Assembly: GCA_009693235.1 (NCBI GenBank)
Contig: SHXR01000013.1
Coordinates: 1 to 64,000, forward strand
DNA: 64,000 nucleotides
Source of the DNA: Betaproteobacteria bacterium
Lineage (GTDB): Bacteria; Pseudomonadota; Gammaproteobacteria; Burkholderiales; SG8-39
Direction: 5' to 3'
Shown: piece after piece, positions 2,302-53,005 of the stretch
Position numbering within the stretch: the stretch's first letter is position 1
Layout of the letters: each line of letters starts with the position of its first letter
Notes under the pieces: generated by a model
The model's input: the letters and a program-made list of their open reading frames with translations, nothing else
Databases searched by the model: none
What the model was told of the DNA's origin: nothing
Program-made: the position numbers and the translations under genes

Positions 2302-3708
2302 ATGAAAGACCAATCCTTCCGCACGCTGCTCCGCGCCCTTGAAGCGCAGGGCGAGCTGATCCGCTTCACCAAGCCCGTTCATCCCGAGCGCAACATGTCG
2401 GCGGTGGAATGGAAAACGTATAACGAGCTTGGCAAATCGAGTCTCTTCACGAACATCGAAGGGCATCCGGGCTGGACGGCGTGCAGCCAGATCATCGCCG
2501 ATCGGCGCAAATGGTCGATTGGGCTCGACATTCCAGAAGACCGTTTGCTGCCCGAGATTCTGCGCCGTGTGCGACAACCGATCGCTCCAGTGCGCGTGGC
2601 CGCTGCTGAGGCGCCGGTGAAGCAAGTAAAACTGTTCGGTAACGAAGCGAATCTGCTCGATCTGCCGACGATGAAAGTGTCGGAGCGGGATGCGGGCCGC
2701 TTCATTGCTTCCGGGATTTCGTTCGTGCGCGATCCGGAAACCGGCATCGGCAACATCTCGTATCACCGCCAGCAGATCAATGGCCGCGATACCACCGGGT
2801 TTGTCATGGTGCCCCGCCATGCAAGGCGCATCTACGACAAGTACTCGACGCAGGGCAAAGGCATGCCGGTGGCGATCGTAATAGGTGTGCATCCCGCGAT
2901 CTTCTTCGCCTCCGGTTTCAGCACGAGCATGGGATTGGATGAACTCACTTTCGCCGGCGCCTTGCTCGGTGAAGGTGTTCGCACGGTGAAATGCGAAACG
3001 ATGGATCTCGATGTGCCGGCCGATGCGGAGATCGTGCTGGAAGGCGAAATCATGCCAGGCGATCACCAGGAACCCGAAGGCCCATTTGGTGAAGTGACGG
3101 GGAGCTATCCGCAGCCAAGCACCGCGCACGTCTTCAAACTGAAAGCGATCACTCGCAGGCGAGACGCCATCTTCTACGCCCTGCACTGCGGGTTTCCATC
3201 GACCGATACGCAATCGATCACCGGGCTTGGCATCGAGGTGGCTACGTTTGAACATTTGCAAAAAGTTGATGGCGGTCTTGATCTTCTTGATCTGCGTTGC
3301 CTCACTATTTCCGGAATGATGATGCTGGTGCTGAAGATTCGGCCCCGCACGGCCGGCCAAGCGAAGGTGGCCTTGATGGCCGCGCTCACCGGGCCCTATC
3401 AACAACCGAAGATCGCGATCGCTGTTGACGATGACATCGACACGGCTGACCTCCGCCAAATCATGTGGTCGATCGCCACACGTGTGCACGCCGGCGAAGA
3501 CGTGATTCTGATTCCGAATGTAAAAGTCTGGGCGCTCGATAATGCCTCGCCGGTGGTTGAAGGCGTCGAGACCTATCAGCGTGTCGGCACGCGATGGATG
3601 ATCGATGCCACCAAGCCGCCCGTCACGATGCCCAAAGAACGAGCACGCTTCGACAAAGCAATGCCGCCCAATTACGACACCGTAAACCTCAAGGATTTTC
3701 TGCCCTAA
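2302..3708 (+). CDS. UbiD-family decarboxylase
   Basis: This 468-residue protein is a full-length member of the UbiD family, prenylated-FMN-dependent (de)carboxylases of aromatic and alpha,beta-unsaturated acids. Visible marks are the cofactor-site region GNISYHRQQI (about residues 150-159) and the acid motif EPEGPFGEVTGSY (about 257-269), with the conserved Glu and the GPFGE loop. The start at 2302 (MKDQSF) begins where the family homology begins; an ATG at 2236 would add an unrelated tail. A TctC receptor follows after 77 bases. Since no ubiquinone genes are nearby, a catabolic role on an aromatic acid is more likely than UbiD proper. No UbiX is seen in the window. Confidence 0.88.
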   Translation: MKDQSFRTLLRALEAQGELIRFTKPVHPERNMSAVEWKTYNELGKSSLFTNIEGHPGWTACSQIIADRRKWSIGLDIPEDRLLPEILRRVRQPIAPVRVAAAEAPVKQVKLFGNEANLLDLPTMKVSERDAGRFIASGISFVRDPETGIGNISYHRQQINGRDTTGFVMVPRHARRIYDKYSTQGKGMPVAIVIGVHPAIFFASGFSTSMGLDELTFAGALLGEGVRTVKCETMDLDVPADAEIVLEGEIMPGDHQEPEGPFGEVTGSYPQPSTAHVFKLKAITRRRDAIFYALHCGFPSTDTQSITGLGIEVATFEHLQKVDGGLDLLDLRCLTISGMMMLVLKIRPRTAGQAKVALMAALTGPYQQPKIAIAVDDDIDTADLRQIMWSIATRVHAGEDVILIPNVKVWALDNASPVVEGVETYQRVGTRWMIDATKPPVTMPKERARFDKAMPPNYDTVNLKDFLP

Positions 3709-3732
3709 GAATCGACACAGCAGAACACGTAG

Positions 3733-3758
3733 GGCGGAATAGCGAAGCGCATTCCGCC
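3733..3758. repeat. REP-like palindrome after the UbiD gene
   Basis: The arms ggcggaat (3733-3740) and attccgcc (3751-3758) form a hairpin around agcgaagcgc. This palindrome type is found between genes in many proteobacteria. It may act as transcript end or 3' stabiliser for the UbiD gene. Confidence 0.6.
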
Positions 3759-3785
3759 GGGTCGACGATCTCAGAAGGAGACAGC

Positions 3786-4757
3786 ATGATGAGAATAGGG
3801 AAACTGGTGCTTGCCATTGCAACGATGGCTATCGCAAGCGCCGTCCAGGCGCAAGCGGGCGACTATCCGAACAAAGCGGTGCGTTTTGTCATTCCGTTTC
3901 CGCCGGGCGGTCCGGCCGATGTGATTGGCCGCATGATCGGCGAGAAGCTCAGTCGTGCCTGGAGGCAACCCGTGCTGGTCGAGAACCGCCCGGGCGCGGG
4001 CGGCAATGTCGCATCGGAGTTCACGGCGCGGGCGGCACCGGATGGCTACACGCTGGCCCTTGTCGCCAACAGCCACGTCACGAATGGCGCGCTCTACAGC
4101 GGCCTCAAATACGATGTGATCAAGGATTTCACGCCGATCAGCCAGGTCGCTTATTACTCGCTGGTGTTGGTTGCCCATCCATCGGTCGCGGCGCGCACCT
4201 TGAAGGATGTCGTTGCATTCGCCAAGCAGAACCCGGGAAAGCTCACGTTCAGTTCAGCCGGGAGTGGTACGCCAACGCATCTGGCAAGCGAATTGTTCCG
4301 GCGCGCCGCGGGCATTGACATCATCCACGTCCCGTACAAGGGGGCAGCGCCCGCGACCACCGATTTGCTGGGGGGGCAGGTCCAATTCATGTTCAACAAT
4401 CCACTCTCAGCACTGCCGCATGTGAAGACGGGCAAATTGCATGCGATCGCCACCACCGGATTGGATCGCTCGCCCACGACCCCAGATGTGCCGACGGTTG
4501 CAGAGCTTGGATTTCCGCAGTTCGAAGTCGGCACATGGTTTGCCTTCCTCGGACCGGGGGGTATCCCGAAGGAAATCGTCGCGAAAGTCGCCGCCGATAT
4601 TGCCGCGACCGCGACCGCGCCCGATATTCGCGAACGCCTGCTCGGTCAAGGAATCGAAGCGCGCGGCACGACTCCCGACCAATTGAGCGCCATCATGCAA
4701 TCCGACTACGCGAAATGGTCGAAGGTGATTCGGGAAGCAAACATCAAGCCGGATTGA
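3786..4757 (+). CDS. Bug/TctC-type periplasmic receptor
   Basis: A 323-residue tripartite tricarboxylate receptor, an extracytoplasmic solute-binding protein for carboxylated compounds. It has a Sec signal peptide ending near AVQAQA, then the family blocks YPNKAVRFVIPFPPGGPADV, VENRPGAGGN, APDGYTL, KDFTPI, HVPYKG and DVPTVAELG. A strong GAAGGAG site precedes the ATG at 3786. It follows the UbiD-family gene in the same direction, so it may bind a substrate for that pathway. No TctA/TctB membrane genes are nearby; such orphan receptors are typical of this lineage. Confidence 0.9.
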   Translation: MMRIGKLVLAIATMAIASAVQAQAGDYPNKAVRFVIPFPPGGPADVIGRMIGEKLSRAWRQPVLVENRPGAGGNVASEFTARAAPDGYTLALVANSHVTNGALYSGLKYDVIKDFTPISQVAYYSLVLVAHPSVAARTLKDVVAFAKQNPGKLTFSSAGSGTPTHLASELFRRAAGIDIIHVPYKGAAPATTDLLGGQVQFMFNNPLSALPHVKTGKLHAIATTGLDRSPTTPDVPTVAELGFPQFEVGTWFAFLGPGGIPKEIVAKVAADIAATATAPDIRERLLGQGIEARGTTPDQLSAIMQSDYAKWSKVIREANIKPD

Positions 4758-4765
4758 TGCGGGGA

Positions 4766-6055
<1,290 letters not shown>

Positions 6056-6160
6056 GTCGCCTTGTGCCGTAAAGCGGGGGGATTGTCAAGAACGGCGTTG
6101 AATTCGCCGGCGACGAGAATCGCATATATTGATCGTGACTTCATCCAGCGAACCTCGATC

Positions 6161-7132
6161 ATGCAAGCCACATTCCTGCTGTTGGCGGCCGCTGCAATCT
6201 TGAGCCTTGCGCAGGGAGTGGTGGCGCAGACTTTTCCGACCAAACCGATCCGGATGATCGTGCCGTTTCCGGCGGGCAGCGCTTCCGATTCCCTGACGCG
6301 AGCGATCAGCCAGGAACTCGTGAAAACCTGGGACCACGGCTTTGTCGTAGAAAATCGTCCGGGCGCATCGACCATCATTGGCGCTGAGGCCTGTGCTCGC
6401 GCGACGCCTGATGGCTACACGCTTTGCATGGTGTCGATCGATAGCATGTCGATCATGCCGGTCCTGCACAAGAAACTCCCCTACGACCCGGTCAAGGACT
6501 TCGAGCCGATCATGCGCTGGGTTACGTTCGTGCAGGGCCTGGCGGTCGCTACATCGCTGCCGGTGAATTCCCTCGCGGAGTTGATCGCGCTGGCCAAAGA
6601 AAAGCCTGACGTCCTCAACTACGGTTCGCTCGGGCAAGGCAGCAACTCGCATTTATTTTTCGAGTGGTTCGCCCGTGCACGCGGTGTGAACCTCACCCAT
6701 GTTCCCTACAAAGGCGTGCCGCCGGTGATTCAGGCCGTCACCGTGAATGAAGTGCAGATGGTCAATCTCGCGGTGGCCAATCTGATTCCGCATCACCGCG
6801 CGGGCAAGCTCAAAATTCTCGCGGTCGACGGTACGCGGCGCTCGGCGCAACTGCCGGAGATTCCGACCTTCCCGGAGGCTGGTATTCCGCCGACCGGATT
6901 TGTCGGCTGGCTCGGTTTCGCTGCGCCCGCAGGAATCCCGAAAGATGTCGTGACGCGCGCGCACTTGGCGATCGCGAAGATCTTTGCGAGTGAAGCCTTC
7001 CGCGAGAAATTCATCATCAACCTTGGTATGACACCAACGGAAAATACTCCCGAGGAGTTCGCGCGCTTTCTCAAACAGGACCGCGAACAGGCGGTTGAAC
7101 TGGTGCGGCAGTCCGGGGTGCGGTTGGATTGA
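6161..7132 (+). CDS. Bug/TctC-type periplasmic receptor
   Basis: A 323-residue receptor of the TctC family with a signal peptide (cleavage near GVVAQ) and the blocks FPTKPIRMIVPFPAGSASD, VENRPGAS, TPDGYTL, VKDFEPI and HVPYKG. Compared with its paralogues, the GAGG-type loop is replaced by GASTIIG, so ligand choice may differ. It starts 105 bases from the divergent DUF3500 gene and lies about 100 bases upstream of the flavin oxidoreductase gene, in the same direction. Confidence 0.88.
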   Translation: MQATFLLLAAAAILSLAQGVVAQTFPTKPIRMIVPFPAGSASDSLTRAISQELVKTWDHGFVVENRPGASTIIGAEACARATPDGYTLCMVSIDSMSIMPVLHKKLPYDPVKDFEPIMRWVTFVQGLAVATSLPVNSLAELIALAKEKPDVLNYGSLGQGSNSHLFFEWFARARGVNLTHVPYKGVPPVIQAVTVNEVQMVNLAVANLIPHHRAGKLKILAVDGTRRSAQLPEIPTFPEAGIPPTGFVGWLGFAAPAGIPKDVVTRAHLAIAKIFASEAFREKFIINLGMTPTENTPEEFARFLKQDREQAVELVRQSGVRLD

Positions 7133-20845: not shown

Positions 20846-21811
20846 ATGACATTCAAAAAAATAGTCGGCATCGGTCTACTGTGCGTCGTCGCAACGGGTT
20901 CGTATGCGCAGGAATATCCGGTCAAGCCGGTGCGCATCATCGTGCCGTTTTCGCCGGGCGGTTTCGTCGATAACAGTGCGCGCGCGATCTCCGACAAGCT
21001 GGGTAATCGCCTTGGTCAGCAGGTGGTCGTCGAAAATCGCGCCGGTGCGAGCGGTAACCTCGGCACATCCCAGGTTGCGCAGTCGGCGCCTGATGGCTAT
21101 ACGCTTTTGCTCGGCTTCGACGGCACGCTGGTCATCAATCCGAGCGTCTACGCGAAAATGCCGTTCGATACCATCAAGGACTTCGCGCCCATCACCAAGA
21201 TCGGCGACGGATCGCTCATCATCGTTGCGCATCCCTCGTTGCCGGCTAACAATCTGAAAGAGTTGATCGCGCTGTCCAAGGCGAAACCGGGCACGCTGTC
21301 ATACGGTACGTCCGGCACCGGCAGTACGCCGCACGTCTTCATGGAACTCATGAAGATGCAGCTTGGCATCGACTGGTTGCACATTCCCTACAAGGGTGGC
21401 GGACAGGCGATCGTCGACGTGACCGGCGGCTCGATTCCACTAGTGGGCACCGCGATCGCCACCGCCCAGCAATACATTAAGCAAGGGCGCCTCAAGGCGA
21501 TCGGCATCGCCAACGCCAAGCGCGATCCGGCGTTGCCCAATGTGCCGACCTTCGCCGAGAGCGGTGCGCCCGACTTGATTACTTATTCATGGTCGGGCCT
21601 CTTGGCACCGGCCAATACGCCACGGCCCATCATTGATCGGCTGTATCACGAGATGGTCGTCGTGCTCAAGGACCCCGACGTGCTGCGGCGCCTCGCGGTG
21701 CTTGGCATCGAGCCGGTCGGCAACACGCCGGAGGAATATGGCGTACAGATCAAGGCCGACATCGAGAAATGGCGCCCGGTCGTGAAGGCGTCCGGCATCA
21801 AGCTTGAGTAA
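20846..21811 (+). CDS. Bug/TctC-type periplasmic receptor
   Basis: 321 residues, with a signal peptide (MTFKKIVGIGLLCVVATG, cleavage near SYAQ) and TctC blocks YPVKPVRIIVPFSPGGFVD, VENRAGASGN, APDGYTLLLG, KDFAPITKIG, HIPYKGGGQAI and NVPTFAESG. GAGGAGA precedes the ATG. Its stop overlaps the TTG start of srkA. Confidence 0.9.
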   Translation: MTFKKIVGIGLLCVVATGSYAQEYPVKPVRIIVPFSPGGFVDNSARAISDKLGNRLGQQVVVENRAGASGNLGTSQVAQSAPDGYTLLLGFDGTLVINPSVYAKMPFDTIKDFAPITKIGDGSLIIVAHPSLPANNLKELIALSKAKPGTLSYGTSGTGSTPHVFMELMKMQLGIDWLHIPYKGGGQAIVDVTGGSIPLVGTAIATAQQYIKQGRLKAIGIANAKRDPALPNVPTFAESGAPDLITYSWSGLLAPANTPRPIIDRLYHEMVVVLKDPDVLRRLAVLGIEPVGNTPEEYGVQIKADIEKWRPVVKASGIKLE

Positions 21812-23377: not shown

Positions 23378-23608
23378 ATGTGGGATCGAAGTTGGTCGTA
23401 GCAATCGTTACTGGCAGCCGCGTGAATGACCGCACGCGCGGCCTAGCGTACCTCGAGCTTAGCTTCGGGGGGCGAGCCAGATCGCGTTGAAAAGCCCATT
23501 TCCCGTGTCGTTGGGTGAGCGACGAGATAGCGTTTCCCTACTTGTAAGTCGCCCTGCGCGCGAGTATTGTTGCGGCGCACAAAATGCCGATCAGGGAGTT
23601 TCACAAGA

Positions 23609-25490
23609 ATGGCCGATTCAGCGGCGCAGACGAAACGTTCGACGCCAGTCCTCACACTGCTTGCGATCGGTGTCGTGTTTGGCGATATTGGTACCAGCCC
23701 GCTCTATGCGTTCAAGGAAGCGTTCGGCGGAACGCATTCGTTGCCGATCTCGACCACGAACGTATTCGCGGTGTTGTCGCTCATCACCTGGTCGGTGATG
23801 TTGATCGTTTCCATCAAGTACGTCTTGATGGCGCTTCGCTTCGACAACAAAGGCGAAGGCGGCATTCTTGCGCCCCTCGCCTACTCCAGCCATCTCTTAC
23901 GTAACAGCCCGCGGGCGGAAGCAATCGCCGGGGTTATCACCGTGTTGGGCGCTTCGCTGTTCTTTGGCGACGTTATCATTACACCCGCGATCTCAGTCTT
24001 GTCGGCGGTCGAAGGCCTATCGATCGCGACGCCCGCGTTTGAGCACTGGGTCTTGCCGATCACGGTCGGCGTGCTGATCGCGCTATTTGCGATCCAGCGC
24101 CACGGCACCGGAAAAGTCGGGCGGCTATTTGGGCCGATCACCGTCATTTGGTTCCTAACCATTGCTTTGCTCGGGGCACGCAGCATCGCGGAAACCCCCA
24201 GGTACTTGAAGCGCTGAATCCGGCCTATGCGCTCGGATTCGCGGTGCAGCATCCCGGGCTCACGTTCGTGGTCCTCGGCGCGGTGTTTCTGGCGTTGACG
24301 GGCGGTGAGGCCCTCTACGCGGACATGGGGCATTTCGGGCCATCGTCGGTCCGCATTGGTTGGTTCGGGTTGGTGTTTCCGGCGTTGATCATCAATTACT
24401 TTGGACAAGGCGCACTGGTGTTGCGCGATCCCACCGCAATCAAGAACCCGTTTTCCTGATGGCGCCGGCCGAGTGGACATTGTTGTTGGTGTGTCTTGCG
24501 ACTGTGGCGACCGTTATCGCCGCGCAGGCGACGATCTCCGGCGCTTTTTCGGTCGCACAGCAGGCCTCGCGTCTTGGTTTTCTGCCGCAGCTTGATATCG
24601 ATGTCACCTCGGACACCGAATGCGGGCAAATCTATATCGCGAAGCTCAACTGGTTATTGCTCGCCCTGGTGTTGCTGCTGGTGTTTTCATTTCGCAGTTC
24701 AAGTGCGATCGCCTCGGCGTATGGCATCGCGGTGGCGACGACGATGGTGCTTGAAACGGCGCTGATCGTCATCGTCGTCGTCGCACGGCCGGGGCGTACC
24801 AATCCATTTTTTCTCGCCCTGCTTGGGGTCATCGGCACCGTCGAGCTGATTTTTTTCGCGAGTAACGCCACCAAGATCGACGACGGCGGATGGTTTCCAG
24901 TGGTCGTGGCAATCATCGTATTTACGCTCCTCACCACCTAGAAGAAAGCCACCGATATCATCCATGCAAGGGAGATGCAGCGCCGTGTCTCCTTGGCGGT
25001 ATTTCTCCCGCATCTTGGCGATTCGATCCAGCGGATGCAAGGTACCGCGATCTTTTTTACCAGCGATCCGGAAAGTGTTCCCACCACGCTGCTGCACAAT
25101 CTCAAGCACAACAAGGTGCTGCACGAGTGGCTGGTGTTTGTACACATTCGCACCGAGGACGTGCCGCGCATTCCGGATGATGAACGCACCGAAGTCGATA
25201 TCATCGAACCGAAGAAGATCTATCGTGTGGCGCTGCGCTATGGATTTCGCGAGGAGCCGGCGATCCTGAAAGGACTGCAGTCGCTTGCCCAACGGGGCCT
25301 TTCGTTCGAAATGGCGGAAACGACATTCTTTCTTGGCAAATCGACCATCGCAAAGACCGAGAAGCGCGGCCTCTTTACCTGGCGACGCGAGCTCTTCAGA
25401 AGAATGCAGAAGAATGCGCCCAGCGCGGCGGAGTATTTTCAACTGCCGCCCGATCGTGTCATCGAATTGGGAACGCAGATCTCCGTATAG
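23609..25490 (+). pseudogene. kup: Kup-type potassium uptake permease, two frameshifts and a TAG
   Basis: Typical Kup text: LLAIGVVFGDIGTSPLYAF at the start, [62 protein letters not shown] precedes the ATG at 23609. Frame is lost at a run of five C (24195-24199, before [12 protein letters not shown]) and at a run of four T (24451-24454, before [11 protein letters not shown]). An in-frame TAG (24939-24941) stands where family members have Trp (LLTTW). The cytosolic C-terminal domain then follows to 25490. Corrected length is about 627 residues, as expected for Kup (about 620), so nothing large is missing. Confidence 0.88.
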
Positions 25491-25545
25491 GTTGCCTCCG
25501 GCCGCGGCACAAGCACACCGGGCAGAGCGGCGTTATGCTCTACAG

Positions 25546-34545: not shown

Positions 34546-35511
34546 TCACTCGGCCTTGACACCGGCCGCCTTCACGACCGGCCCCCAGCGGACCACTTCA
34601 TCGCGAATGGTCTTGGTGAATTGTTCGGGTGTATCGCCGATCACTTCGGCGCCGATGGCGGTGAATCGCTCAGTGACCTCCCGCTCCCGGAGGCCCTTCA
34701 CCGCCGCGCCATGCAATTTGGCAACGATGTCAGCGGGCATGCCGGCCGGCCCCACCATGTCAAACCAGGTTGAGATATCGAAGTCCGGAAAACCCGCTTC
34801 GGCGATCGTTCCTGCCTCGGACGGCAGCGGCGAGCGATGACGACTGGTCACCGCGATCACCTTGAGCTTGCCGCTTCTCACGTTCGGGATGGCGGCGGTG
34901 AGCGATGCGTCGCCCGACAGCGGGACGATGCCGGCAAGCAGATCGGTGAGGGCCGGCATCGCCCCTTTGTAAGGAACATGATTGAGCTTGATTCCCGCGA
35001 GAACGGCGAAATGTTCGACACCGAGATGGACGATGGTGCCAACGCCTGGCGATGCGTAGTTGATCTTGCCGGGATTGGCTTTTGCCAGTGCAATCAGTTC
35101 ACGGACATTGTTGGCCGGAAACGACGGATGCGCGACGATCGCACCGACCGCGATGCACACGTTCGTGATCGGTGTGAAATCCTTGAGCGAATCGTAGGGG
35201 AGCTTGGCGAACATATGCGGTGCGATGCCAAGCGATGAAATGGTCGGCAGGCCGATCGTGTAGCCGTCGGGTGCCGCCTTCGCAATCGCATCGGCACCCA
35301 TCGTGCCGCCGGCTCCCGGCCGATTCTCGACCACGACCGGTTGACCGAGCGCATCAGAGATCGCCTTGGCGGCCGAGCGTCCGTAAATATCGATGAGGCC
35401 GCCCGCCGGAAATGGCACGATGAAGCGAATCGGCTTCGATGGATACGCTTGTGCCGCGGCGTTACCGGCGTGCAATGCGAGCAAAGCAGCAATGGCCAAC
35501 ACGATTCTCAA
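34546..35511 (-). CDS. Bug/TctC-type periplasmic receptor
   Basis: 321 residues with signal peptide (ILRIVLAIAALLALHAG region, cleavage near NAAAQ) and TctC blocks YPSKPIRFIVPFPAGGLID, VENRPGAGGTMG, APDGYTIG, KDFTPI and HVPYKGAMPALTD. The chosen start is the TTG at 35511, placed six bases after GGAGGA; no ATG fits. The operon continues into the Asp-type hydrolase, so the ligand may be that enzyme's substrate or product. Confidence 0.88.
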   Translation of the reverse strand: MRIVLAIAALLALHAGNAAAQAYPSKPIRFIVPFPAGGLIDIYGRSAAKAISDALGQPVVVENRPGAGGTMGADAIAKAAPDGYTIGLPTISSLGIAPHMFAKLPYDSLKDFTPITNVCIAVGAIVAHPSFPANNVRELIALAKANPGKINYASPGVGTIVHLGVEHFAVLAGIKLNHVPYKGAMPALTDLLAGIVPLSGDASLTAAIPNVRSGKLKVIAVTSRHRSPLPSEAGTIAEAGFPDFDISTWFDMVGPAGMPADIVAKLHGAAVKGLREREVTERFTAIGAEVIGDTPEQFTKTIRDEVVRWGPVVKAAGVKAE

Positions 35512-35611
35512 AATGATTCCTCCATGACGCCATGTCGTGATCCGGCGCAGCAAGAATAGCACTGCAGGATCGGGCCACTCGATTCGATGTGCCACGCAAC
35601 CCCCCGGCAAT

Positions 35612-36343
35612 CTATGGCAGGAGATGGGCGCGCCGCAGGTGGCGGGCGATGACAGGGTCGTCGACTTGATAACCGATGACTTCGCCGATCGGTCCCGCCG
35701 CGCCGGATTGCTTTCCGTCGACCACCATCGAGAGGGTGCCAGGTGGCGCATCGCCCAGTCTATCGGCGACGAATAGATAGCCGTCGTGTCGGCGCTTGCG
35801 GTCGATGAGGCGATCGCGCAATGCCGGAATGAACAGCACGGTACCAATCGGCAACCGCGCAGCGGACACCGACCACCAGGGAATCAGCCGGAAGCGCTCA
35901 GCCCCCAGTCCGTGTGGTGCATCGAGCTTTTGAAACACGCTGCGCCCCAACGCGCCCGCGGCCACCGGTATTTTTCTGGCGAGCCTTGAGAAATAGCGGC
36001 GGCAATTGACCTGCGGTGCGCGCGCCGTCCCGACGACCTGATAGGTCGCATCAGCGATGATACCGCTGCCGGCGGCGGCAAGCTCGCAGAATTGTCCGTC
36101 TGCGAGAAGCGGTCCAAGCGCCTGCCCGTTCGCATCGCGGAGCGCGATCGTGGCGCCTGCCTCGGGCACGACGGGCACTGTCGCCACCCCGACTAGCGTT
36201 AGCGAGTGCGCGCTAGCCGACAGAAATAGCGGCGGTTCGAAGGCGAAGTCCCCCTCTGCATTGGCCGCCACGGCAAGACATAGCGCACCCATCGCAATGC
36301 CAATGTAAGACCGGGCCGATCGCGCGACACTCGCCTTGGTCAA
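35612..36343 (-). CDS. exported protein, possible 3D-domain (MltA-like) fold
   Basis: 243 residues. TTG at 36343 overlaps the stop of pnuC (TTGA). The N-terminus has a signal peptide (SYIGIAMGALCLAVAANAEG). The body includes GSGIIADATYQVVGTA, CRRYFSRLARKIPVAAGAL and, at the end, RLPIGTVLFIPALRD, RRHDGYLFVADRLGDAPPG and LSMVVDG. This last order (P-x-G-T-x-L-x-I-P, then H-D-G-x-F-x-x-x-D) is that of 3D domains of MltA-like lytic enzymes, where the Asp is catalytic. The assignment is tentative, as the rest of an MltA enzyme is not present. Confidence 0.5.
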   Translation of the reverse strand: MTKASVARSARSYIGIAMGALCLAVAANAEGDFAFEPPLFLSASAHSLTLVGVATVPVVPEAGATIALRDANGQALGPLLADGQFCELAAAGSGIIADATYQVVGTARAPQVNCRRYFSRLARKIPVAAGALGRSVFQKLDAPHGLGAERFRLIPWWSVSAARLPIGTVLFIPALRDRLIDRKRRHDGYLFVADRLGDAPPGTLSMVVDGKQSGAAGPIGEVIGYQVDDPVIARHLRRAHLLP

Positions 36344-48831: not shown

Positions 48832-49842
48832 TTACTGCGACTGAAACACCTTCGCCGTTTTCGCGATGGCCGCCCATTTGGCGATCTCATTGCGGTGAAA
48901 TTCGGCGAATGCCTCCGGGGACGCAGAGGGCGCAGCCTCGATGCTGACGTTACCAAGGCGCTCAACGACATCCGGCAACTTCGTCACTTCCTTTAGCTCG
49001 TTGTTCCAGCGTTCAACCACGCTGCGTGGCGTGCCGGCCGGCGCAAACATGCCGATCCAGGCGATCATGTTGAGGTCATGAATCTCCTGGACACCTCCTT
49101 CGCCCATGGTCGGCACGCTGGCCGCAAACGGCGAGCGTCGTTGTGAGGTGACGGCCATCGCTTTTACCTTACCCCCTTTGACTTGGATATTAGCCGAGGT
49201 CATGCCGTCGAACATCAAGGTGATCTGGCCGCTCATCAAATCGGTCAGCGCCTGTGCGCTGCCCTTGTAAGGAACGCCGACCACGTCAATGCCGGTGGTG
49301 ACTTTCAGGGCCTCCATGATGAGCTGCGAAATGGTGCCCTCACCAATATGGCCGTAGTTATAGGCGCCGGGCTTCGCCTTAAGCAATGCGATGACTTCTT
49401 GCAAGCTATTGGCTTGCACTTGATTGGCCGCTACCAGGATCATCGAAGTAAATCCGACCATCGAGATCGGCGTCAGATCCTTTTCCGGGTCGTACGGAAG
49501 CTTCTTGTGCACGGCCGGAAGAATCGCCACCGGAGAGATCGATGTAACGAGAATGGTGTAGCCATCCGCAGGGGCCTTGACGACCGCATCGACACCGATA
49601 ATCCCTGCGCCACCTGAACGGTTATCGACGATGACCGGTTGGCCAAATCGCTGCGCGAGTCGATCGAGCATGGCACGAGACGCAACGTCTGCGGCATTGC
49701 CGGGTGGGAAGGGCGCCACCATGCGGATCGGGCGATTGGGGTAAGCGGCCCCTTGTGCGCTAGCGAAATGGGTCGCGAGCGTCGCCACCAGGGCGATGGC
49801 AACCGTCACGCCGTGAAGCGGATGCGGCAAGTGGTGCATCAT
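48832..49842 (-). CDS. Bug/TctC-type periplasmic receptor
   Basis: 336 residues, starting at a double ATG (49842, MMHHLPHPLHG), with a signal peptide cleaved near HFASAQ. Blocks: YPNRPIRMVAPFPPGNAAD, VDNRSGGAGIIG, PADGYTILV, EKDLTPISMVG and VGVPYKGSAQALTDL. The first block has GNAAD rather than GGPAD, so ligand contacts may differ. It diverges from the CitE-MaoC gene, with repeat copy E in the 329-base gap. Confidence 0.88.
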   Translation of the reverse strand: MMHHLPHPLHGVTVAIALVATLATHFASAQGAAYPNRPIRMVAPFPPGNAADVASRAMLDRLAQRFGQPVIVDNRSGGAGIIGVDAVVKAPADGYTILVTSISPVAILPAVHKKLPYDPEKDLTPISMVGFTSMILVAANQVQANSLQEVIALLKAKPGAYNYGHIGEGTISQLIMEALKVTTGIDVVGVPYKGSAQALTDLMSGQITLMFDGMTSANIQVKGGKVKAMAVTSQRRSPFAASVPTMGEGGVQEIHDLNMIAWIGMFAPAGTPRSVVERWNNELKEVTKLPDVVERLGNVSIEAAPSASPEAFAEFHRNEIAKWAAIAKTAKVFQSQ

Positions 49843-50171: not shown

Positions 50172-52139
50172 ATGTCCAACGCCGATCTCAGTTTATGCCG
50201 TTCATTCTTATTCACACCGGGCAATCGCCCGGAACGCTTCGTCAAGGGCGCTGCCTCCGGTGCCGACGCGCTGATCCTCGATCTTGAAGATGCGGTTGCC
50301 GCACATGATAAAGACAGCGCCCGCGCGACGGTCATCGAACATTTCCGTGGCAATTGGCGCGCCTCCCTGGGGGCAGGGCAGCTGTGCGGATTGCGGGTCA
50401 ATAATCTCCACACACCGGCCGGCGCCAAGGATCTGGAAGCACTCGTCGCTTCCCGCATCACTCCGGACTTCATCGTCATTCCGAAGGTCGAGTCGGCCCC
50501 TGAGGTGGAAGTGTTCATTCGCCAGCTAGCCGGTCCGCAGGCGGGCGTTCAGTTTCTCTGTGCCATTGAGTCGGCCCGCGGATTGGAGGCGGCCATGGCT
50601 ATTGCGGCTGTGCATCCACGCGTTCAATCGCTTGGATTTGGCGGCGCGGATTTGGCCGTCGAGTTTCGCGCGGAGCTTGCGTGGGAGCCGATGTTCATGG
50701 CGCGCGCACGGCTCGTGCAGGCCGCTGCGGCGGCAGGGATCGGATTAGTCGACGTGCCGCATATCGATTTGGCCGATGACAGTGGATTGCAACGCGACAC
50801 CCAACGCGTGAAGGCGATGGGATTCACCGGCAAGCTGGCGATTCACCCAAAGCAGGTGAAGCCGATCCAAGCCATCTTCACACCAACGCCCGAGGAGGCC
50901 TTGCGGGCGGCCGGGATCGTGGCCGCATTCGAACGCTCAGCAGGCAACGTCGTCGAATTCGACGGCAAGATGGTCGAAGGCCCGATCGTCAAGGTGCACG
51001 AACGCATTCTGGCGCTTGCTTGGCGTGCCGGCGTATCGATGCATCCAGCATCTTTGGTGGCGGCGGGGAGCGAATCAGCGGGGCCCTTCTCTGCTTATTA
51101 CACCGCAGGCGATGGCCGCTACGTCGAGCAGTTCGGCCTCGACTTCGAAGACTTTGCGGTCGGTCAGCGCTTTCGCCATCGTCCTGGTGTCACGGTCACA
51201 CAGCAAGACAATCTGGACGAGGCCCTCGATACGCTAAATAGCGCGATGATTCATTACGACGCGCATTACGCGGCGCAGACGACCTGGGAAAAGCCGCTCA
51301 TGGTGAGCACGGTGACGTTGCAGCGGATCATCGGGATGGCGTCCAAGACCTTTGCCAAGCGCCGCGCCATTCGCAGCATGCAGGAAATCGCGATGACGGC
51401 CCCCGTTTTTGGCGGTGACACCTTGTACGCGGAGACCGATGTGCTGGGTGTCAGCGCCGGGACCGATCCCATCTGCGGTCTGGTTGAAGTGGTCTCGCGT
51501 GGCGTCAATGCGGCCGGCCAAATCGTGGCGCGAGTGACCTATACCGTCGAAGTATTCAAGCGCGGCCAGCATCCGGACACCGCTGGGCAAGCACGCGGGC
51601 TGCAGCGCGCCCCCGAATCACGCTTTGCCCATCATCGCCAGTTGGCAGACGGTGCACTGGTCGAGCAATGCGGCTTTTTCTTCGAGGATTGCGCACCGGG
51701 TGAAACCTTCGTGCACTACTCGCGGCGCACGTTTCATCGCGATGAGGCGATTGAGCATGCGTACCGATCACTTGATGTGGCGCCGCAATATCATGACGAG
51801 CGATGGATTCGCGAGCATCAGGACGGCCGCTACCGGGTCGCCGAAACATGGCTGATCAGCGCGGCGACCGCGCTCTCGACACGCACTTTCGGACGCGTGG
51901 TCGCAAATCTCGGTTGGTACGACATCACCTTGCCTCACGCGGTCTTCGCGGGTGACACGGTGCATGCCGAATCGACCATTCTTGAAAAGCGCGCATCCAA
52001 ATCGCGACCCAACGAGGGCATCCTCAATGTCGAGACGCGCGCCTATAGCCAGCATGGAGAACTCGTCGTGGCCTACAAGCGCAATCTGCTCGTCTACAAA
52101 CGGGCGGCCGACACCCCCTATCCGAAAGCAGGATACTGA
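50172..52139 (+). CDS. CitE-like CoA lyase fused to two MaoC-type hydratase domains
   Basis: 655 residues. Residues about 1-290 are a CitE/HpcH-type beta-hydroxyacyl-CoA lyase: RSFLFTPGNRPERFVKGAAS, ALILDLEDAV, VIPKVESAPEV, CAIESARGLEAAMAIA (catalytic Glu), GFGGADLAVEF (metal Asp) and IHPKQV. From about 320, two tandem MaoC hot-dog domains follow: GLDFEDFAVGQRFRHRPG with FGGDTLYAETDVLGV, and FFFEDCAPGETFVHYSRRT with FAGDTVHAESTIL. Mesaconyl-CoA hydratase has the same double hot-dog plan, and (3S)-malyl / beta-methylmalyl-CoA lyase the same lyase fold, so the fusion would join two successive steps of that chemistry. The exact substrates are inferred. Confidence 0.85.
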   Translation: MSNADLSLCRSFLFTPGNRPERFVKGAASGADALILDLEDAVAAHDKDSARATVIEHFRGNWRASLGAGQLCGLRVNNLHTPAGAKDLEALVASRITPDFIVIPKVESAPEVEVFIRQLAGPQAGVQFLCAIESARGLEAAMAIAAVHPRVQSLGFGGADLAVEFRAELAWEPMFMARARLVQAAAAAGIGLVDVPHIDLADDSGLQRDTQRVKAMGFTGKLAIHPKQVKPIQAIFTPTPEEALRAAGIVAAFERSAGNVVEFDGKMVEGPIVKVHERILALAWRAGVSMHPASLVAAGSESAGPFSAYYTAGDGRYVEQFGLDFEDFAVGQRFRHRPGVTVTQQDNLDEALDTLNSAMIHYDAHYAAQTTWEKPLMVSTVTLQRIIGMASKTFAKRRAIRSMQEIAMTAPVFGGDTLYAETDVLGVSAGTDPICGLVEVVSRGVNAAGQIVARVTYTVEVFKRGQHPDTAGQARGLQRAPESRFAHHRQLADGALVEQCGFFFEDCAPGETFVHYSRRTFHRDEAIEHAYRSLDVAPQYHDERWIREHQDGRYRVAETWLISAATALSTRTFGRVVANLGWYDITLPHAVFAGDTVHAESTILEKRASKSRPNEGILNVETRAYSQHGELVVAYKRNLLVYKRAADTPYPKAGY

Positions 52140-52165
52140 TGGTGCAAATCTTGATACATCGAACC

Positions 52166-53005
52166 ATGAAGTATCGAACCGTTGCGTGCGTCGTCATGGC
52201 CTTCTGTTTGGCGAGCACCGCCTTTGCGCAGGCGGACGCCAAGGACCTCGACATCCCTTACGTGCCCACGCCACAGAAGGTGGTCGATGCGATGCTGGCG
52301 ATGGGTGAGGTGGGTCCAAAGGATTTCCTGATCGATCTGGGATCTGGTGACGGTCGCATGGTGATCACTGCCGCCAAGCAGTTGGGCGCCCGGGGCTTCG
52401 GTGTCGAGATCGATCCTCGTCTGGTGGCCCTGGCGAACCGCGCGGCCGTGGCGGAAGGTGTGGGCAATCGTGTGCAGTTCATGGAGCAGGATCTGTTCAA
52501 GACGCCCCTTCACGAGGCGAGTGTCATCACTATGTACCTATTACCGGATGTGAATATCGAATTGCGACCGCGGCTCCTCGCGTTGAATCCAGGCACCCGC
52601 ATTGTTTCGCACGACTACCACTTGGGTGAGTGGCAGGCCGATGCGCATGAAATGCTGGATGTCCCCGACAAGCCGGTCGGGCCCTTGCGCAAAAGCGATA
52701 TCTACCTGTGGATTGTCTCAGCCCAAGTTGCCGGGAATTGGGAAGCGCCCATGAATGGCAAACTCCGTGGCGTGCGACTTGAATTGACCCAGCAGTACCA
52801 AGCCGTGCAGGCCAAACTCACCCTTGAAGGGGTGCCTCTTCGCGTTACGCGGACCACACTTCGCGGTCGAATGCTCGAGGTCATTGCGGAGAATGCCAGG
52901 GAGGAGCCTTTCAGGTTGGTCCTGCAAGCGGAGGGCAAAGTCTTGACCGGTGTTGGGAGGCTCTCGGCGGGAAAGCCGATCCGGACGGTATTCAATCGTC
53001 ATTAG
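52166..53005 (+). CDS. methyltransferase-fold protein with a signal peptide
   Basis: 279 residues from the ATG 52166 (MKYRTVACVVMAFCLASTAF, cleavage near AQAD). A start at 52139, overlapping the previous stop, would add nine residues and weaken the signal peptide. The body has the class I SAM-methyltransferase motifs: DFLIDLGSGDGRMVITAAK (motif I), GVEIDPRLVALANR (motif II) and IVSHDYHLGEWQAD. SAM is not expected in the periplasm, so the export is odd; homologues with a signal peptide are known, but their role is unclear. The C-terminal part (about 200-279) has beta-rich text of unknown role. Confidence 0.8.
   Translation: MKYRTVACVVMAFCLASTAFAQADAKDLDIPYVPTPQKVVDAMLAMGEVGPKDFLIDLGSGDGRMVITAAKQLGARGFGVEIDPRLVALANRAAVAEGVGNRVQFMEQDLFKTPLHEASVITMYLLPDVNIELRPRLLALNPGTRIVSHDYHLGEWQADAHEMLDVPDKPVGPLRKSDIYLWIVSAQVAGNWEAPMNGKLRGVRLELTQQYQAVQAKLTLEGVPLRVTRTTLRGRMLEVIAENAREEPFRLVLQAEGKVLTGVGRLSAGKPIRTVFNRH

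Follow-up and report, generated by a model that had tools for sequence, protein, structure and literature searches.

The RipB-RipC (Ich-Ccl) system of the Yersinia pestis type pairs a lyase with a hydratase in that gene order, and the known RipB is a separate protein of 175-216 amino acids with a single hot-dog domain (PMC9615192). In Serratia entomophila, which grows on itaconate, the cluster contains a CoA-transferase, ripC and a 175-amino-acid ripB (PMC9615192), and the itaconate cluster of P. aeruginosa and C. necator includes a CoA-transferase and an acyl-CoA dehydrogenase (PMC12290011). Double hot-dog hydratases are represented by MeaC/Mch (8hgn, 4e3e), which have one composite active site; in the MeaC structure, Asn226 and His231 touch the bound malate, which is held by Asn85 (backbone) and Arg142 (PMC10164722). 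Among the CitE-like lyases, Rv2498c (CitE) of M. tuberculosis is a short, stand-alone (S)-citramalyl-CoA/HMG-CoA lyase (PMC6689899), and Zarzycki and Kerfeld reported that all members of the superfamily keep the catalytic Asp of the lid domain, apart from the cluster of malyl-CoA thioesterases, which has Glu (PMC3832036). A hydratase joined to the next C-C cleaving enzyme is also known from the steroid hydratase-aldolases ChsH1-ChsH2-Ltp2 and Shy-Sal, in which ChsH2 is a catalytically inert MaoC partner with its His replaced by Tyr (PMC11321319).

The window (the whole stretch of 64,000 nucleotides that was analysed) carried members of the lyase and hydratase families of RipC and RipB in one chain. 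The gene at 50172-52139 on the forward strand was a single frame of 655 amino acids, from the ATG at 50172 to the stop at 52139, with no internal stops. Pfam analysis gave HpcH_HpaI (PF03328) at residues 10-226 (E 1.8e-37), MaoC at 330-441 (E 7.7e-14) and MC_hydratase with its best stretch at 493-645 (E 1.2e-16), scores that lie far beyond chance. The intact frame and the Pfam matches thus agreed with the sequence-only reading, which had described a CitE lyase joined to a double MaoC hydratase in one 655-residue frame. The protein consisted of a CitE-like lyase (1-286), a variable linker (287-304) and two hot-dog domains (305-655). The features of the locus were as follows:

48832-49842, reverse strand: TctC-type solute-binding receptor, divergent neighbour (PF03401, E 2e-61)
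50172-51029, forward strand: CitE-like C-C lyase, RipC/Ccl-type, residues 1-286 with the C-terminal lid (PF03328, RipC_Ccl)
50394-50396, forward strand: Arg75, active-site Arg (invariant in 57 sequences; role from PMC3832036)
50568-50570, forward strand: Glu133, Mg2+ ligand (invariant in 57 sequences; role from PMC3832036, PMC6689899)
50649-50651, forward strand: Asp160, Mg2+ ligand (invariant in 57 sequences; role from PMC3832036, PMC6689899)
50976-50978, forward strand: Glu269, at the position of the lid-domain catalytic Asp (alignment of 57 sequences)
51030-51083, forward strand: residues 287-304, a linker that split relatives lack (dN/dS, sister-gene start codons)
51084-51611, forward strand: hot-dog 1, putative catalytic half (RipB_Ich 135.7 bits; N356/H361 in 26/26 hydratases)
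51237-51239, forward strand: Asn356 of hot-dog 1
51252-51254, forward strand: His361 of hot-dog 1
51612-52136, forward strand: hot-dog 2, putative binding half (RipB_Ich 116 bits; N579/R637 in 26/26 hydratases)
51906-51908, forward strand: Asn579 of hot-dog 2
52080-52082, forward strand: Arg637 of hot-dog 2
52139-53005, forward strand: SAM methyltransferase whose start resembles a signal peptide, sharing 1 nt with the fused gene

By comparison with relatives, the fusion is genuine and conserved. The sister species within this genus (G001, record L037) contained the same fusion with 90% protein identity, flanked by TctC and the methyltransferase as in the window, so that both genomes of the genus carried it. 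The dN/dS between the two genes was 0.07 for the lyase, 0.042 for the hydratase and about 0.8 for residues 287-304, a value computed from 18 codons that fits the expectation for a linker. Three ATG/GTG/TTG codons were found at residues 290-296 of the window gene, and a search of residues 280-330 of the sister gene showed no in-frame ATG, GTG or TTG, which makes separate translation of the hydratase from a usual start unlikely in the sister. In split relatives, a hydratase start codon stood at the matching place, often as MSFYAY... The kup potassium transporter of the window (23567-25500, forward strand) showed two apparent frameshifts, near 24215 and 24480, and appears to be a pseudogene or an assembly error, so a join seen in this one assembly would be weak evidence. 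A mis-join of two adjacent genes would also agree with the relatives beyond the genus, in which, where both halves occurred, they were all split, a pattern that the sequence-only reading had named as a sign of mis-joining. The separately assembled sister, with its fused gene, same neighbours, diverged linker and missing internal start codon, refutes an assembly artefact for practical purposes. The public record of the sister gene (CAMDRJ010000325.1) is titled as a Klebsiella pneumoniae metagenome-assembled genome, a name that is probably wrong.

No further fusion was found in 98 genomes of the family, 399 genomes of the order (a drawn sample), 369 genomes of the class or, with the hydratase as query, 398 genomes of the phylum, the order and larger groups being searched as samples. 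The plasmid search likewise showed no fusion; two records spanned most of the query, each as two annotated genes. Two candidates (G091, G369) were rejected since their matches, spanning the lyase and the first hot-dog, contained a stop codon. In all other genomes searched, the halves were separate genes, often adjacent with the lyase before the hydratase: this order was found in 11 of the 12 split loci measured, where the two genes lay -4 to 34 nt apart, and one locus (G014) was reversed. In two loci (L038, L039) the genes shared a frame across a 24-nt gap. A separate double hot-dog gene of about 350 residues was rare, occurring in 2 other genomes of the 369 in the class sample (E 1e-40); the hosts of such genes were betaproteobacterial and Acetobacteraceae metagenome-assembled genomes, Nonomuraea and Sphaerisporangium. 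The open literature yielded no description of an Ich-Ccl fusion or of a doubled RipB, though one may exist.

The lyase is of the RipC/Ccl type, rather than the malyl-CoA/beta-methylmalyl-CoA lyase proposed earlier. Its best NCBIfam model was RipC_Ccl (NF038242) with 249 bits, compared with 30 bits for the haloarchaeal malyl-CoA lyase model; 249 bits is below the equivalog cut-off of 375, which is strict, since the annotated P. caribensis rip operon has a lyase that falls short of it too (290.5 bits). The closest solved lyase by sequence was Y. pestis RipC (3qll, E 2.8e-58), which was 40% identical and shared its region of the tree. Identity alone separates the two types poorly, as R. sphaeroides malyl-CoA lyase was 38% identical over aligned columns, and the fold match to RipC (Z 24.1, rmsd 3.2, 193 aligned) was tied with malyl-CoA lyases. 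What sets them apart is the family score, the place in the tree and the lack of the insertion that follows the metal-Asp strand in malyl-CoA lyases (query 164-166 faces 4l9y 193-213). With malyl-CoA lyases the domain shares the CitE-like fold and the Mg2+ site, and its metal ligands are of the kind seen in Rv2498c. Across 57 aligned CitE-like sequences, R75, E39, D40, E133 and D160 were invariant, and the Mg2+-ligand Glu and Asp and the active-site Arg expected of RipC_Ccl were all present (E133, D160, R75). The Glu and Asp named earlier as catalytic residue and metal ligand were thus in place, but both are metal ligands, and the position of the superfamily's catalytic acid is held by Glu269. 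The lid-domain Asp expected of RipC_Ccl and malyl-CoA lyases, and reported as retained in the superfamily to which Rv2498c belongs (PMC3832036), was absent, and this replacement would be a caution for lyase function.

For the full-length protein, the model (pTM 0.51) was too uncertain at residues 256-300 and 352-362 to show the domain arrangement, and the hydratase was therefore modelled alone. AlphaFold of residues 305-655 showed the two hot-dog domains seen earlier (mean pLDDT 87, pTM 0.81), and each half structurally resembled MaoC-type hydratases. Each hot-dog alone matched RipB_Ich (NF038241) best, with 135.7 bits for hot-dog 1 and 116 bits for hot-dog 2, and not the mesaconyl-CoA hydratase suggested earlier; the total was 247 bits over two stretches, under the cut-off of 340, and a split relative (L108) scored 291.7 bits. 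The dyad Asn356/His361 in hot-dog 1 and the carboxylate-binding Asn579/Arg637 in hot-dog 2 were each found in 26/26 aligned hydratases. At the positions equivalent to Asn579/Arg637, hot-dog 1 had I/L/V and mostly Tyr, and at the dyad positions hot-dog 2 had E/D/N and Y/F, with H in two; in the window protein, hot-dog 2 had lost the dyad and carried Asp535 and Tyr540, the latter matching the His-to-Tyr replacement in ChsH2. All four residues were present in 17/17 single RipB-like domains. Where RipB_Ich has dyad and carboxylate pocket in a single hot-dog, the window protein had a tandem pair with the residues split. The residues aligned with Asn226/His231 and Asn85/Arg142 of MeaC, which suggests that both hot-dogs share one composite active site. 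The catalytic Asp/His expected earlier was intact in a family-specific form, as an Asn/His dyad like that of MeaC (PMC10164722) and of RipB, and in the first hot-dog only.

The double hot-dog appears to be a duplication of RipB. In a maximum-likelihood tree of 67 domains, hot-dogs 1 and 2 paired (UFBoot 92) and joined the RipB-like singles (91), while the two MeaC/Mch halves paired with each other (UFBoot 91) apart from them. In MeaC/Mch the dyad belongs to the C-terminal half and the N-terminal half holds the carboxylate pocket, the reverse of the window protein. Since the tree pairs the halves within each family, it supports two independent, mirrored duplications, with moderate support and long branches as a concern. 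The single RipB is presumably a symmetric dimer, and the split of residues suggests that it turned into a pseudo-heterodimer that has a single composite site.

The operons of split relatives gave the genomic context; their neighbours were identified through homologous reference proteins, of which several carry Pfam-derived names. Proteobacterial split clusters contained a divergent TctC, a family III CoA-transferase, a GntR regulator, the lyase and the hydratase, and the Nonomuraea and Sphaerisporangium clusters contained an acyl-CoA dehydrogenase, a family III CoA-transferase, the lyase, the hydratase and an AsnC-type regulator. The earlier link to the TctC receptor held, as a TctC gene was a recurrent divergent neighbour of split operons and shared 48-57% identity with the TctC of the window, compared with 29-45% for other TctCs. 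Four more window ORFs (3594-4757, 5912-7132, 20846-21811, 34546-35847) looked TctC-like by eye, fitting an expansion of the TctC family. One genome (G839) had a lyase, a double hot-dog, a RipA-like CoA-transferase (51% to P. caribensis) and a TPP enzyme; it resembled ripC-ripB-ripA with the double hot-dog in the ripB position, and the annotated P. caribensis order is lyase-ripB-CoA-transferase-poxB. The TPP enzyme after both clusters is suggestive, rather than proof, of a pyruvate product, because that of G839 was assigned just to the TPP superfamily. In about ten genomes (including G001, G014, G021, G032, G012, G078, G079, G082 and G083), a SAM methyltransferase gene was near or adjoining that of the lyase or hydratase, with three copies each in G014 and G021. 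As a point against an itaconate pathway, no CoA-transferase was found beside the fused gene in its own genome; the best candidate partner, on another contig (C96), was 57% identical with no related neighbours. The same genome also had a separate RipB-like gene with a single hot-dog, which overlapped a CitE-like lyase gene and had a TRAP-type receptor next to it (C56:1683-3073).

The fused protein is probably a bifunctional enzyme of the kind that degrades itaconate (a C5-dicarboxylate), a reading preferred because of the split-operon neighbours and the known itaconate clusters. A CoA-transferase or ligase encoded elsewhere would form the CoA monoester of the dicarboxylate. The composite site, with the Asn356/His361 dyad and the Asn579/Arg637 pocket, would then hydrate itaconyl-CoA/mesaconyl-C4-CoA to (S)-citramalyl-CoA, which the N-terminal Mg2+-dependent lyase would cleave to acetyl-CoA and pyruvate; the fusion may bring a benefit such as channelling. 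The best family of every domain was an itaconate-pathway enzyme and the carboxylate-binding Arg was invariant among the 26 hydratases, but both domains scored under their equivalog cut-offs (249/375; 247/340) and the genome has its separate RipB-like and lyase pair. These two points would also agree with the same chemistry on another dicarboxylyl-CoA, such as a longer or substituted itaconate or mesaconate homologue or an aromatic or branched-chain breakdown product, which would yield an acyl-CoA together with a 2-oxo acid. The relatives in G014 and G021 adjoin genes for a Liv ABC transporter and an AMP-dependent ligase, which also lie near the window gene and could point to other acids; with the RipABC-like operon of G839 and acid-contact residues identical to those of C4/C5 dicarboxylate hydratases, such a substrate is rather doubtful.

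The glyoxylate and propionyl-CoA products of the sequence-only reading, from a mesaconyl-C1-CoA hydratase and a beta-methylmalyl-/malyl-CoA lyase (or acetyl-CoA in place of propionyl-CoA), are unlikely, as both parts group with RipB/RipC by sequence, the malyl-CoA lyase insertion is missing and a split operon has a RipA-like CoA-transferase and a TPP enzyme. The MeaC/Mch-like size and composite-site chemistry, the tied structural Z and the possible promiscuity of CitE-like lyases (PMC3832036) speak for them. Glu269, described as typical of the malyl-CoA thioesterase cluster of R. sphaeroides (PMC3832036), would suit a 3-hydroxyacyl-CoA thioesterase that, with the hydratase, releases citramalate or malate and free CoA. 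Glu was found at this position in 32/57 CitE-like sequences and Asp in 25/57; in a tree built without the R. sphaeroides thioesterase, Glu occurred at several separate places and in the whole window clade, which was nested among Asp lyases with the same hydratase partner. Glu269 is therefore not diagnostic, and a thioesterase is very improbable. The earlier architecture is right, and the pathway should be assigned to the RipB/RipC kind instead of malyl-CoA chemistry.

Relative to the described systems, the enzyme differed from RipB in its doubled, divided hydratase fused to the lyase, from RipC and malyl-CoA lyase in having Glu for Asp, from Rv2498c in not standing alone, and from the steroid complexes, with their steroid substrates, unrelated aldolase and DUF35-mediated contact, in its covalent link. 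With lower probability, the protein may be a covalent hydratase-lyase passing a 3-hydroxy dicarboxylyl-CoA between its sites, with a non-itaconate substrate and a mirror-image double hot-dog that represents an undescribed hydratase family. The genuine fusion is good evidence that hydratase and C-C lyase catalyse successive steps, as had been expected, presumably with a CoA-bound dicarboxylate, and it helps to assign a scattered, unnamed gene pair. The residue pattern would be a clear example of one ancestral hot-dog hydratase that was duplicated twice independently, with opposite halves of a symmetric site lost in the two lines. If the itaconate reading is true, the enzyme would provide a compact version of the route by which an antimicrobial and immune metabolite is broken down.
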